A DNA stretch of 38,307 nt, taken from NCBI GenBank assembly GCA_036399815.1, contig DASWMK010000168.1, positions 1 through 38,307 on the forward strand, in the 5' to 3' direction. Below are positions 24,722 to 37,509 of this stretch, in pieces. This DNA is from Acidimicrobiales bacterium (GTDB taxonomy: Bacteria; Actinomycetota; Acidimicrobiia; Acidimicrobiales; DASWMK01). The notes beneath the pieces are model-generated. The model saw only the letters and a program-made list of their open reading frames with translations, did no database searches and was not told where the DNA came from. Every line of letters begins with the position of its first letter. Position 1 is the first letter of the stretch. The position numbers were made by a program, and so were the translations under genes.

Positions 24722-24805
24722 GTCGGAGTGGCGGAATAGGCAGACGCGCTAGCTTGAGGGGCTAGTGCCCGCAAGGGCGTGGGGGTTCAAGTCCCCCCTC
24801 CGACA
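24722..24805 (+). tRNA. tRNA-Leu (anticodon GAG)
   Basis: The acceptor stem GTCGGAG (24722-24728) pairs fully with CTCCGAC (24798-24804), followed by discriminator A at 24805. The anticodon stem is CTAGC/GCTAG with loop TTGAGGG, giving anticodon GAG, which reads CUC and CUU. A long variable arm (TGCCCGCAAGGGCGT) marks it as a class II tRNA, and the T-arm is GGGGG-TTCAAGT-CCCCC. The 3' CCA is not encoded. A region of different composition begins just downstream. Confidence 0.97.
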
Positions 24806-25155
24806 CGCTGGATCGAGCGCCTCAGACGCACGTCGCGTGTGGTAGCGAGCCGGCGAGCGTGCCTCTTTGCGCGCTCGGTCCGCACGTGCCATCGGCATGG
24901 CGAACGACGCCTTTGTCATTCGCCGACGGCGCCGATCGTGGCGGACCTCCGTTCGTTGCAGACGCTCATGGGGTCGCGCTTCAGAGCGGACCTTTTGAGG
25001 GTGTTTGACGCCGACCATCGGGCACGGCGAGATCAAGGCGAACGCCAAGGATCCAGTCAGCCTGTCGCCGACGAAGGGTCGAACAGCACCGAGTCGTCGG
25101 ACGCGAACGTGCGATCGAACCTCCGTCCCGGTGGCTCGGGCGGTCACTGTCGGGG
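24806..25155. other. 350-nt region between tRNA-Leu and vsr with no recognisable gene
   Basis: Open frames exist on both strands but none encodes a recognisable protein or has convincing codon use. Base composition is already less G+C-rich than upstream of the tRNA. I looked for a direct repeat of the tRNA 3' end that would mark an integration site and saw none. It may be the decayed edge of an inserted island. Confidence 0.5.
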
Positions 25156-28070: not shown

Positions 28071-28627
28071 TGCTGACGGACGGAACTCCAGCGGCGCTGT
28101 AGGCGTGCAAGGCGCGAGCCCTGATCGCTCGTAGCCCGGCGCAGACGACTGGTCACCGCCACGCCGTCGCGGTCCTGCCGATGTCAGCGCTGAGCTACCG
28201 GGCCACGTGCTCGGCGAGGTGGCCGGTCGTGAGTGGTCATGTCGGCGCCACGCGCCGTTGTGTTCGACCTCGCCGCCTATCGCACGCCTTCGGGCGGCCG
28301 GCGCATACTGGAGGTGTCGCATCGCTGCGAGGCCCACCATGGGGAAGCACCGCTGCGCGGCCCGAACAAGTCGAGGTGCGCTGGCGTCGCCGCCCGAGGA
28401 AGGTAGCAGCGCATTCCGCACAGGCCGCCGAGGTGTGTCGCTCAGCAGCCACCGGTCTCACTTTGTCGGCGAACGCGGCGGCCGCACGAACGACCGATGC
28501 CCAAGTCCCGAGGCGCCGGAGTGGATTGCGCCGGACGTCCGCCGTAGTCCGGGTCCGATGAGTCTCGGGAGCGAGGGGAGTCTCAGTGGAAACGCCCGGA
28601 TCACCGAGTCGACACTGGAGCGTGAGC
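28071..28627. other. About 557 nt without a recognisable gene (right edge of island)
   Basis: Several short overlapping frames exist on both strands (for example 28237-28641 minus and 28181-28561 plus), but none resembles a known protein or has a ribosome binding site. The nuclease promoter should lie at the left end. The remainder may be remnant sequence from the insertion of the restriction-modification genes. Confidence 0.45.
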
Positions 28628-29188
28628 GTGGGCAAACTCATCTACTCGGCCATCGCGTCGCTCGACGGCTACGTGGAGGACGCGAGCGGGCGGTTCGACT
28701 GGGCGGCGCCGGACGAGGAGGTGCACGGGTTCGTCAACGACCTCGAGCGGCCCATCGCCACCCACCTGTACGGGCGCAGGATGTACGAGACGATGGTCTT
28801 CTGGGAGACGGCCGGTCTGGCCGACGACGACCCCGAGGTCATCCGGGACTTCGCCTCGGTCTGGCGAGCCGCCGACAAGATCGTGTTCTCGAGGACGATG
28901 ACGTCGGCGGCGAGCGCACGGACGCGCATCGAGCGGGACTTCGACCCCGGTCTGATCCGGCAGCTGAAGCAGCGGGCCGACACGGACCTGTCGATCGGCG
29001 GCGCCGACCTGGCCGGGCAGGCGCTGGCCGCCGGGCTCGTCGACGAGGTGCAGCTGTTCCTCGTCCCGGCGATCGTCGGTGGCGGCAAGCGCGCCCTGCC
29101 GGCCGGCGTGCAGGCACGGCTCGGGCTGGTCGACACCCGGGCGTTCGGCGGCGGCGTCGTGTACGTCCGCCACGCGGTCGACGGCTGA
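28628..29188 (+). CDS. RibD C-terminal/dihydrofolate-reductase-like family protein, copy 1
   Basis: This 186-residue protein belongs to the RibD_C (DHFR-fold) family of predicted NADPH-dependent reductases, whose substrates are mostly unknown. Landmarks are GKLIYSAIASLDGYVEDASG (residues 2-21), THLYGRRMYETMVFWE (about 44-59), ADKIVFSRTM and the cofactor-loop DLSIGGADLAGQALAAGLVD, then FLVPAIVGGGKRAL. GTG 28628 is chosen because the family begins MGKxxYS and GGAG lies 8 nt upstream; GTG 28622 is possible. It has the same length as, and is collinear with, the gene at 30090, so the two are tandem paralogues separated by a broken kinase-like gene. Confidence 0.88.
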   Translation: MGKLIYSAIASLDGYVEDASGRFDWAAPDEEVHGFVNDLERPIATHLYGRRMYETMVFWETAGLADDDPEVIRDFASVWRAADKIVFSRTMTSAASARTRIERDFDPGLIRQLKQRADTDLSIGGADLAGQALAAGLVDEVQLFLVPAIVGGGKRALPAGVQARLGLVDTRAFGGGVVYVRHAVDG

Positions 29189-30050: not shown

Positions 30051-30089
30051 GGCTCGCCGGGGCGGTCCCGCTGACGCCGGAGGAGGCCC

Positions 30090-30650
30090 ATGGCCAAGCT
30101 GATGTACGTGGCGAACGTGACCCTCGACGGCCACATCGAGGACGCCGACGGCCGCTTCGACTGGGCCGAGCCGACCGACGAGTACTTCGGCTTCATCACC
30201 GACCTCGTGCGCCCTGTCGGCACCTACCTCTACGGCCGGCGGCTGTACGAGACGATGGCCGTGTGGGAGACCGACCCCACCCTGGCCGCGCAGTCGGAGC
30301 TGCGGGCCGACTTCGCCGGCGTCTGGCAGAGCGCGGACAAGGTCGTCTACTCCACGACCCTCCGCACGGTGTCGACGGCCAACACACGGCTCGAGCCCCG
30401 CTTCGACCCCGATGCCGTCCGCGACCTCAAGGCGTCGGCCGCCGGCGACCTCACCATCGGCGGGGCGACCCTCGCCGCCCATGCCTTCGACGCCGGCGTG
30501 GTCGACGAGTGCCACCTCTTCGTCGGCCCGGTGGTCGTCGGCCGGGGCAAGCCCGCGTTCGGGAGCGCCGCCCGCACGGAGTTGGACCTGCTCGAAGAGC
30601 GCCGTTTCGACAACGGCGTCGTCTACCTCCGCTACCGCACCCACCGCTGA
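30090..30650 (+). CDS. RibD C-terminal/dihydrofolate-reductase-like family protein, copy 2
   Basis: The 186-residue paralogue of the gene at 28628. It reads MAKLMYVANVTLDGHIEDAD, GRFDWAEPTDEYFGF, TYLYGRRLYETMAVWE, SADKVVYSTTL, DLTIGGATLAAHAFDAGVVD and LFVGPVVVGRGKPAF, matching copy 1 position by position without large gaps. It is a predicted DHFR-fold, NADPH-dependent reductase; the reaction is unknown. The ATG at 30090 has a strong GGAGGAGG site 6 nt upstream. Because the genes are diverged at many positions, the duplication is old or the copies came from different sources. Confidence 0.9.
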   Translation: MAKLMYVANVTLDGHIEDADGRFDWAEPTDEYFGFITDLVRPVGTYLYGRRLYETMAVWETDPTLAAQSELRADFAGVWQSADKVVYSTTLRTVSTANTRLEPRFDPDAVRDLKASAAGDLTIGGATLAAHAFDAGVVDECHLFVGPVVVGRGKPAFGSAARTELDLLEERRFDNGVVYLRYRTHR

Positions 30651-33439: not shown

Positions 33440-36400
33440 ATGGACGTGCGCGCGCTGCTCGGGCGCTGGCCGGTCCTTCGCCAGGTGACGGGCCGGGACG
33501 GGCTGGGCCGGGGCGCGGCCGCCGTGTCCGAGCGCACCGCCGCGTGGCGGCCCCGCACCGAGGACGCGGACCACGTCGCCCGCTCGGTCTGCCCCTACTG
33601 CGCCGTCGGGTGCGGGCAGCGGGTGTACGTCAAGGACGGCGGGGTCACCCAGATCGAGGGCGACCCGGACAGCCCGCTCTCCCGGGGCCGGCTGTGCCCG
33701 AAGGGCAGCGCCAGCCGGAACCTCGTGACGAGCCCGCTCCGCCAGACGAAGGTCCGCTACCGGCGGCCCTACGGCACCGAGTGGGAGGACCTCGACCTCG
33801 ACACGGCGATGGAGATGATCGCCGACCGGGTCCTCGCCGCCCGCCGGGCCGGGTGGCAGGACACGAACGAGGACGGCGTCCCCCTCCGGCGCACGACGGG
33901 GATCGCCAGCCTGGGCGGCGCCACCCTGGACAACGAGGAGAACTACCTCATCAAGAAGCTGTTCACCGCGTTGGGCGCCATCCAGATCGAGAACCAGGCC
34001 CGCATATGACATTCGGCCACCGTCCCCGGTCTGGGGACATCCTTCGGCAGGGGCGGGGCGAGCACCTACCAGCAGGACCTCGCGAACGCGGACTGCATCG
34101 TCATCCAGGGCTCGAACATGGCCGAGTGCCACCCGGTCGGGTTCCAGTGGGTGATGGAGGCCAAGGCCAGGGGCGCGAAGGTCATCCACGTCGACCCCCG
34201 CTTCACCCGGACCAGCGCCCTCGCTGACCTGCACGTCCCGCTCAGGGCCGGGACCGACATCGCCTTCCTGGGCGGCGTCGTCCACCACATCCTCGAGCAC
34301 GGCCTCGACTTCCGCGAGTACCTCCTCGCCTACACGAACGCGTCGACGATCGTGGACGAGCGCTTCCTCGACACCGAGGACCTGGACGGGCTGTTCTCCG
34401 GCTTCGACGCCGAGCACCGCCTGTACGACCCGTCGTCCTGGCAGTACGAGGGGATGACGGCCGAGCCGCCGAGCGGCGGGCGGGACCAGGGCGAGGCCCG
34501 GGAGCAGGCGACCTCCCACGAGCACGGCAGCCACGGCGCCCCGCTCGACGGCGACGGGCCCCGCCGCGACCCGACGCTTCAGCACCCCCGCTGCGTGTAC
34601 CAGATCCTCCGCCGCCACTTCTCCCGCTACACGCCCGAGGCCGTCGAGCGCGTCTGCGGCACGCCCAAGGAGCAGTTCCTCGAGGTGTGCCGGGCGTGGA
34701 CCGAGAGCTCGGGGCGGGAGCGGACGACGGCGCTGGTGTACTCGGTGGGCTGGACCCAGCACACCGTCGGCGCGCAGTACATCCGCACGGGGGCGATCAT
34801 CCAGCTGCTGCTCGGCAACATGGGCCGGCCCGGCGGCGGCGTCCTCGCCCTCCGGGGCCACGCCAGCATCCAGGGGTCGACCGACATCCCGACCCTCTAC
34901 AACCTGCTGCCCGGCTACCTGCCGATGCCCGACGCCGGCAAGCACCGCGACCTGGCGTCGTACCTGGAGGGGATCACGGGGCAGCGCCGGGCCGGGTTCT
35001 GGGGCCGGGCCGACGCCTACACGGTCAGCCTCCTGAAGGCCTGGTGGGGCGACGCGGCCACGGCCGAGAACGACTGGTGCTACGACCACCTGCCCCGCAT
35101 CGACGGCGACCACGGCACCTACCGCCAGGTGCTCGACATGATCGACGGGAAGATCAGCGGCTACTTCCTGCTCGGCCAGAACCCGGCCGTCGGCTCGGCC
35201 AACGGGCGGGCCCAGCGCCTCGGCATGGCCAACCTGGACTGGCTCGTCGTGCGCGACCTGTTCGAGATCGAGAGCGCGACCTGGTGGAAGGACGGGCCGG
35301 AGGTGGCGACCGGCGAGATCGTCCCCGAGCAGTGCCGCACGGAGGTGTTCCTGCTGCCGGCCGCCTCGCACGTCGAGAAGGAGGGCACGTTCACCCAGAC
35401 CCAGCGCCTGCTCCAGTGGCGGGAGAAGGCGGTGGAGCCGCCGGGTGACTGCCGCTCCGAGCTGTGGTTCTTCTTCCACCTCGGCCGGATGGTCCGGGAG
35501 CGGCTGGCCGGGTCGACCGACGAGCGGGACCGCCCGATCCTCGACCTCACCTGGGACTACCCGACCCACGGCGAGCACGACGAGCCGTCGGCCGAGGCCG
35601 TGCTGATGGAGATCAACGGCGTCGACCTGGCGACGGGCCGGCCGGTCGACGGCTTCACGGACCTGCGGGCCGACGGCACCACCACGGCGGGGTGCTGGAT
35701 CTACAGCGGCGTGTACGCCGGCGGGGTGAACCAGGCCGCCCGCCGGCCGCCCCCGGAGGCGCAGGGGCCGGTCGCCGGCGAGTGGGCCTGGGCCTGGCCG
35801 GCCAACCGGCGCATCCTCTACAACCGGGCGTCGGCCGACCCCGAGGGCCGGCCGTGGAGCGAGCGCAAGGCCTACGTCTGGTGGGACGCCGAGCGGGGCG
35901 AGTGGACCGGCCTCGACGTGCCGGACTTCGAGCGGACCAAGCCGCCGTCGTACGAGCCACCGCCGGGCGCGAAGGGCGAGGACGCGCTCGGCGGCGCCGA
36001 CCCGTTCGTGATGCAGGGCGACGGGAAGGGGTGGCTGTTCGCGCCGGCCGGGCTGGTCGACGGGCCGCTCCCGACCCACTACGAGCCGGCCGAGTCGCCG
36101 GTCGCCAACGCCCTGTACGGCCAGCAGGCCAACCCCGTCCGGCAGGTGTTCCCGCACGCCGCCAACCCCGGCCAGCCGGGGCCGGGCGCGCCGGGCAGCG
36201 AGGTGTACCCGTACGTGTTCACGACGAGCCGGCTGACCGAGCACCACACGGCCGGCGGCATGAGCCGCTACGTGCCCCTGCTGGCCGAGCTCCAGCCCGA
36301 GCTGTTCGTCGAGGTGTCGCCGGCCCTCGCCGCCGAGCGGGGGCTGACCCACCTGGGCTGGGCCCACCTCGTCACCGCCCGGTCGGCGGTCGAGGCCCGG

Positions 36401-36673
36401 GTGCTGGTGACCGACCGGCTGGTGCCGCTGCGGGTGGCCGGCCGCACCGTCCACCAGGTCTGCATCCCGTACCACTGGGGCCAGGGCGGCGGCCTCACCA
36501 CCGGCGACGCGGCGAACGACCTGTTCGGCATCACCCTCGACCCCAACGTGCACATCCAGGAGAGCAAGGTGGGCGCCTGCGACATCCGCCCGGGCCGGCG
36601 GCCGACCGGCGAGGCGCTCCTGCGCTACGTCGAGGACCACCGGCGCCGGGCCGGCGAGGGGGGACCCCCGTGA
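33440..36673 (+). CDS. fdhA: Selenocysteine-containing formate dehydrogenase catalytic subunit (TGA recoded)
   Basis: FdhA oxidises formate to CO2 at a Mo or W bis-pterin centre. Read through the in-frame TGA at 34007-34009 as selenocysteine 190, it is 1077 residues long. The N-terminal [4Fe-4S] motif is CPYCAVGC with Cys51, Cys54 and Cys58, plus Cys86 in GRLCPKG. The NQARI-Sec-HSATV context is that of FdnG/FdoG-type enzymes. Later come the pterin-binding LGQNPAVGSANGRAQRLGMA, FLLPAASHVEKEGTFTQTQR and the C-terminal domain (RLTEHHTAGGMSR, HWGQGGGLTTGDAANDLFG). A hairpin right after the TGA fits a bacterial SECIS. Automatic calling would give two false pieces, 33440-34009 and from about 34118. 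No Tat signal is seen, so it probably faces the cytoplasm. ATG 33440 is the only good start. Its stop overlaps the next gene's GTG. Confidence 0.93.
34010..34045 (+). promoter_or_regulatory. SECIS-like hairpin directing selenocysteine insertion
   Basis: Stem GTCCCC (34022-34027) pairs perfectly with GGGGAC (34033-34038) around the 5-nt loop GGTCT. The E. coli fdhF SECIS loop, which binds SelB, also contains GGUCU. The loop begins 21 nt from the T of the recoded TGA, the spacing I recall for E. coli fdhF. The lower stem is less clear. Confidence 0.85.
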
Positions 36674-37509
36674 CCCGCCTGCGCGACCGCCTCCTCGGCC
36701 CGGTGGACCCGGCGCCCGACGCCGGGTGGGAGGAGCCACCGCCCCGCGTCGGCTTCTTCACCGACACGTCGGTGTGCATCGGGTGCAAGGCGTGCGAGGT
36801 GGCCTGCAAGGAGTGGAACGGCGTCCCCGAGGCCGGCCTCGACCTGCTCGGGTGGTCCTACGACAACACCGGCTCGCTCGGGGCGAACGCCTGGCGCCAC
36901 GTCGCCTTCGTCGAGCAGCCGACCGCCGGCGACGGGGACCGGGCCGGGATGCGCTGGCTGATGATGTCGGACATCTGCAAGCACTGCACCAACGCCGCCT
37001 GCCTCGACGTGTGCCCCACCGGGTCGCTGTTCCGCACGGAGTTCGGCACGGTCGTGGTGCAGGAGGACATCTGCAACGGGTGCGGCTACTGCATCCCCGC
37101 CTGCCCCTACGGCGTCATCGACCAGCGGCGGGGCGACGGCCGGGCCTGGAAGTGCACCATGTGCTACGACCGGCTGAAGGGCGGCCTCGAGCCGGCCTGC
37201 GCCAAGGCCTGCCCGACCGACTCGATCCAGTTCGGCCGGCTCGACGTGCTGCGGGAGCGGGCCGCCCGCCGGGTGGGGGAGCTGCACGACGCCGGCGTCG
37301 GGTCCGCCCGCCTCTACGGGCACGACGACGCCGACGGCGTGGGCGGCGACGGCGCCTTCTTCCTGCTCCTCGACGAGCCGGAGGTCTACGGGCTGCCGCC
37401 CGACCCGGTCGTCACCACGCGCGACCTGCCGGCCATGTGGCGGCGGGCCAGCGCGGCGGCCGCGGCCATGGCCGTCGGCGCCGTCGTCGCGTTCCTGGGC
37501 CGGCGCTGA
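36670..37509 (+). CDS. fdhB: Formate dehydrogenase iron-sulfur (ferredoxin-like) subunit
   Basis: This 279-residue electron-transfer subunit has four [4Fe-4S] sites of the FdnH/DmsB type: CIGCKACEVACKEWN (about residues 37-51), CKHCTNAACLDVCPTG, CNGCGYCIPACPYG and CTMCYDRLKGG followed by CAKACPTD. It passes electrons from FdhA to the membrane subunit. A C-terminal hydrophobic stretch (AAAAMAVGAVVAFLG) would anchor it, as in E. coli FdnH. The GTG at 36670 overlaps the fdhA stop (GTGA), and its TGA overlaps the next ATG, so the three genes form one coupled operon. An N-terminal extension of about 25 residues precedes the first cluster. Confidence 0.95.
   Translation: MTRLRDRLLGPVDPAPDAGWEEPPPRVGFFTDTSVCIGCKACEVACKEWNGVPEAGLDLLGWSYDNTGSLGANAWRHVAFVEQPTAGDGDRAGMRWLMMSDICKHCTNAACLDVCPTGSLFRTEFGTVVVQEDICNGCGYCIPACPYGVIDQRRGDGRAWKCTMCYDRLKGGLEPACAKACPTDSIQFGRLDVLRERAARRVGELHDAGVGSARLYGHDDADGVGGDGAFFLLLDEPEVYGLPPDPVVTTRDLPAMWRRASAAAAAMAVGAVVAFLGRR

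Follow-up and report, generated by a model that had tools for sequence, protein, structure and literature searches.

The 38,307-nucleotide stretch of Acidimicrobiales DNA analysed here (the window) almost certainly encodes the selenocysteine (Sec)-containing catalytic subunit of a membrane-anchored FdhA-FdhB-NrfD formate dehydrogenase, with the UGA at codon 190 of fdhA predicted to be decoded as Sec. The frame contains one internal TGA and a terminal TGA at 36671-36673 (Table 1), and no further lesion was found downstream of TGA190. The initial annotation had joined two same-frame open reading frames, separated by this TGA, into one FdhA, and the read-through product bears this out by matching NF041513 (formate_DH_Act), the NCBIfam profile for actinobacterial formate dehydrogenase, end to end. 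In profile searches, it scored 1962.7 bits against NF041513 (cut-off 1400; residues 7-1070) and 924.9 bits against TIGR01553 (cut-off 814.2), and the domains PF04879, PF00384, and PF01568, which represent the N-terminal [4Fe-4S] and molybdopterin-binding domains, each scored above their cut-offs. The best solved relatives in a phmmer search were 1kqf (Escherichia coli FdnG) and 1h0h (Desulfovibrio gigas FdhA), and residue 190 aligned with the X of both structures (NQARV-X-HGPTV and HQARI-X-HSATV, respectively). The motifs ENQARI and HSATV do flank the TGA, as had been pointed out, but they are not exactly those of FdnG-type enzymes: E. coli FdnG reads DNQARV-U-HGPTV, and the identity QARI-U-HSATV is shared with D. 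gigas FdhA instead. Judged from the sequence, a formate-oxidizing product with Sec at the internal stop is well supported.

Table 1. Positions of the formate dehydrogenase genes and the Sec-related elements in the window.
Feature	Position	Strand	Remarks
fdhA, Sec-containing formate dehydrogenase catalytic subunit (predicted)	33440..36673	+	1077 residues with TGA190 as Sec; NF041513, TIGR01553
TGA codon 190, read as Sec (predicted)	34007..34009	+	Opposite the modified residue (X) in the alignments with 1kqf and 1h0h
Bacterial SECIS hairpin	34022..34038	+	Stem GUCCCC/GGGGAC; loop GGUCU at 34028-34032; 18 nt after TGA
fdhB, [4Fe-4S] electron-transfer subunit	36670..37509	+	GTG start codon overlapping the stop codon of fdhA; Fer4_11 and further Fer4 domains
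NrfD-type membrane subunit, cut off at its 3' end where the contig stops	37509..38307	+	PF03916 NrfD, 48.7 bits

The Sec codon is conserved among homologues within and beyond the order. An fdhA match was present in 31 of the 148 genomes from the same order, and 29 of the aligned rows covered codon 190, which was TGA in 28 (window included) and TGT in one (genome G080, locus L048). The alignment with Sec and Cys homologues, which had been recommended as a check, showed a homologous Sec site and, among these rows, a single Cys form. The 28 TGA genes, which come from separate assemblies, contained no other TGA inside the aligned gene. Extra TGAs in the FdhA of family f29 and of genome G054 fell outside the aligned gene and are most likely terminal stops. 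A search of the named genome collection returned at least 588 related stretches among at least 595 matches. The best 80 of these at least 588 relatives were all actinobacterial (Micromonospora, Nocardioides, Streptomyces, Mycobacterium, Amycolatopsis, Kineococcus, and others), with codon 190 being TGA in 78 and TAG in 2. The resulting Sec-type set of 108 rows, window included, comprised 106 TGA and 2 TAG codons, although the rows are mutually related and were picked by similarity and so do not represent independent samples. The two TAG genes (L199 and L207, from Geodermatophilus and Goekera of the Geodermatophilaceae) encode the same enzyme and keep the same hairpin, differing in TAG rather than TGA at codon 190; the UAG-Sec code of the Geodermatophilaceae has already been published (PMC5330540 and its reference 56).

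The hairpin that follows the UGA has the features of a bacterial SECIS. The bSECIS model (criteria quoted from PMC13188914) specifies a loop of 3-9 nt, a stem of 4-16 bp, a G in the first two loop positions, a spacing of 16-37 nt, and a minimum free energy (MFE) of -7.5 kcal/mol or lower. The window hairpin falls within every one of these limits, with a 5-nt loop, a 6-bp stem, GG at the start of the loop, a spacing of 18 nt, and an MFE of -11.8 kcal/mol. Its energy alone is ordinary for its composition when compared with shuffled sequences (z of -0.2 to -1.0), and longer stretches around it favour a competing fold. Since fold energy alone does not single the hairpin out, conservation and covariation carry the case for a SECIS. 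A hairpin of six or seven pairs is kept in 108/108 Sec-type rows. The third stem pair, V195.3-G199.3, formed by the wobble bases of Val195 and Gly199, is a standard pair in each of the 108 rows (C-G 77, U-A 18, U-G 8, G-U 3, and G-C 2) and has undergone at least 16 changes on the FdhA tree. Among the gene's 11,628 synonymous-site pairs, it ranks first by mutual information (0.69 bits vs 0.42 bits for the next pair) and is the only one complementary in every row. Loop bases 1 and 4, the N1-N2 pair allowed by the model, also co-vary (G..C 100, A..U 7, and A..C 1), and the G-to-A change at loop base 1 turns Gly into Ser. In the Cys homologue of G080, the hairpin is lost and a different fold of -2.2 kcal/mol takes its place; neither selC nor selA had a match in that genome. 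The E. coli fdhF SECIS likewise has a GGUCU loop beginning 18 nt past the UGA, whereas its stem sequence differs from that of the window hairpin. Both the hairpin and the reading frame are visibly under selection.

Part of the machinery for Sec insertion was located elsewhere in the same genome. The initial annotation had noted that selA, selB, selC, and selD are absent from the window, and the genome-wide matches indeed sit on other contigs. It had also proposed a genome search for these genes, with the absence of all of them as the counter-case. The search recovered selC (tRNA-Sec; C128:3159-3250, 67.6 bits, cut-off 47, anticodon TCA), selD (C28:8129-9043, 331 bits, cut-off 125), and the C-terminal 66 amino acids of SelB (SelB-wing_3, 62.5 bits) at the very start of contig C24; SelA had no match in the assembly, which is estimated to be 96.7% complete. 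The gene order in related genomes points to a location for the missing part. selA and selB are adjacent in G135, G029, G046, G048, and G027. In G048 and G027, the end of selB is followed by what we take, from our own reading of the sequences, to be a convergent alpha/beta hydrolase-like gene and a WhiB-like gene, and the same genes follow on C24. The selC-bearing contig C128 breaks off within an iscA-like gene that lies ~3.5 kb upstream of selA-selB in G048 and upstream of selA on the same contig in G027. This synteny places selA and most of selB in the assembly gap between C128 and C24; with the spacing of G048, this gap would be roughly 6-7 kb long. Matches to the SelB N-terminus at the ends of C230 and C260 were interpreted as truncated EF-Tu genes, the two contig ends being identical in sequence and having an EF-G-like gene or tRNA genes upstream. 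Among the 31 genomes of the order with this fdhA, 26 have selA, including the nearest ones, G135, G103, and G040. Two genomes of family f50, G049 and G124, have tRNA-Sec and no selA or selB match, which may reflect an assembly gap, gene loss, or divergent enzymes; G049 also carries a TGA fdhA. A search for a second selenoprotein, of the UGSC type, gave one weak sub-threshold match.

The internal TGA could in principle stem from a sequencing error or a recent nonsense mutation, which would make FdhA a cysteine enzyme or a pseudogene. The missing selA and the Cys form in G080 would fit such an origin. However, TGA occupies the same codon in 27 other members of the order and in 78 of the best 80 wider loci, in independent assemblies. 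The SECIS is intact in the window gene and lost in the Cys form, and the downstream frame is otherwise undamaged. We therefore regard an error or mutation as extremely unlikely.

Another possibility is that the codon is a true Sec codon whose decoding has been abandoned, selA and most of selB having been lost and fdhA surviving as a relic that terminates at codon 189. This is very unlikely, even with a nearly complete genome that yields no SelA match and with the two f50 genomes that have selC without selA or selB, one of them with a TGA fdhA. The SelB C-terminus opens at the very edge of C24, as an assembly break would leave it and a decayed gene would not, and the iscA-like end of C128 and the genes after selB on C24 match the layout around selA-selB in G048. 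The visible selection on the hairpin and reading frame also argues against a relic. Sec might also be inserted from Sec-tRNA that is formed independently of SelA, such as through an archaeal-type PSTK/SepSecS route. Nothing besides the unseen selA speaks for it, the assembly gap explains that absence, and selA is present in most genomes of the order with this fdhA, its closest relatives among them; we consider this route vanishingly improbable. Decoding of UGA190 as Sec through the bacterial machinery, as the initial annotation had predicted, is favoured by the homologous Sec site, the conserved and covarying SECIS, the tRNA-Sec and SelD in the same genome, the SelB fragment at a contig edge, and the synteny that puts selA-selB in the assembly gap.

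With UGA190 decoded as Sec, FdhA would be the catalytic subunit of a cytoplasm-facing Mo- or W-bis-MGD formate dehydrogenase, in which the Sec would serve as a ligand of Mo/W. The SECIS would bind SelB, which would deliver the Sec-tRNA-Sec (selC) made by SelA, presumably encoded in the assembly gap, with selenophosphate from SelD. Formate-derived electrons would then travel via the [4Fe-4S] clusters in FdhA and FdhB to the NrfD subunit, and on to quinone. FdhB scored 183.8 bits against TIGR01582 (FDH-beta), below the cut-off of 334.7. The locus (L097) has 1500 bases of left flank and none on the right, which indicates that the contig ends at 38307. Elsewhere in the window, the neighbouring genes at 28562-29185 and 30075-30647 encode similar proteins (xxKLxYxAxxxLDGxxEDAxGRFDWAxP), which we take to be an apparently duplicated RibD/dihydrofolate-reductase-like pair. 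A tRNA-Leu (anticodon gag) lies at 24722-24806, and no other RNA gene was detected in the window.

The enzyme belongs to a known and widespread group. It shares the fold family and the aligned Sec position with E. coli FdnG (1kqf) and the W-containing formate dehydrogenase of D. gigas (1h0h), but differs from them in its NrfD-type gamma subunit and in lacking a twin-arginine motif (no RRx[FLIVM] in the first 60 residues). The gamma subunit of FdnGHI is a cytochrome b. The full-length match to NF041513 revealed nothing that sets the window protein apart from that family. Among described systems, FDH1 of Actinomycetospora chiangmaiensis comes closest; it consists of a Sec-containing FdhA1 of 1078 aa, FdhB1, and FdhC1. 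Formate removal measured in this organism was selenium-dependent (selenite), and its proteome contained SelA, SelB, and SelD (PMC7176365). Both are actinobacterial Sec-FdhA proteins of near-equal length accompanied by beta and gamma genes, whereas selA and selB are listed in the A. chiangmaiensis cluster and lie elsewhere in the window's order. An arrangement with fdhA adjoining selA-selB, as in Actinomycetospora, was looked for and rejected, with the genes on different contigs in G009, G013, G040, G048, and G010. The homologue from an uncultured Actinomycetospora (L203) has both the Sec codon and the hairpin. The initial annotation had described selenoproteins as rare in actinobacteria. This disagrees with the genome collection, where at least 588 stretches matched and the 80 best came exclusively from actinobacteria, and with the tRNA-Sec found in 39/59 sampled genomes of this order. 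Actinobacteria have been counted among the three selenoprotein-rich phyla (PMC1794560).

The phylogeny of FdhA splits the order. A quick tree built with no outgroup places the window FdhA next to those of G135 and G103 in a clade that consists mostly of Actinomycetes sequences, and separates it from 23 other members of its own order; the genes of G040 and G079 are also placed among Actinomycetes sequences. This placement suggests that fdhA was transferred horizontally between lineages. The G079 gene (L058, on G079:C107) has TGA at the Sec site, and neither selC, selA, nor selB had a match in that genome; the gene clusters with Kineococcus, the genome is rated 5% contaminated, and L058 may be a stray contig.

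The avoidance of ATC immediately before the Sec codon is the one feature that our account leaves unexplained. Ile189 (34004-34006 and the aligned codons) is ATT or ATA in 98/107 Sec-type genes, whereas the other Ile codons of the same genes are ATC in 96% and ATT/ATA in 3.7% of cases; we attach no weight to the binomial p-value for this bias, as it takes no account of how the rows are related. Codon 189 has undergone at least 18 changes on the FdhA tree, and the consensus folds contain no pairing partner for it; the codon preceding TGT in the Cys homologue is GTC. Because both ATT and ATA are used and no pairing partner was found, the base as such might influence termination or decoding through SelB. 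We tentatively propose, at somewhat less than even confidence, that actinobacterial Sec codons follow a context rule beyond the SECIS, by which C should be avoided as the last base of the codon just before UGA.

The window fdhA is a further case of a well-known enzyme that is widespread in actinobacteria and already described, and it opens no long-standing question. Standard gene callers would split this formate dehydrogenase in two. Our analysis indicates that this actinobacterium uses Sec, and, as Sec decoding is common in the order, formate oxidation there is probably selenium-dependent.
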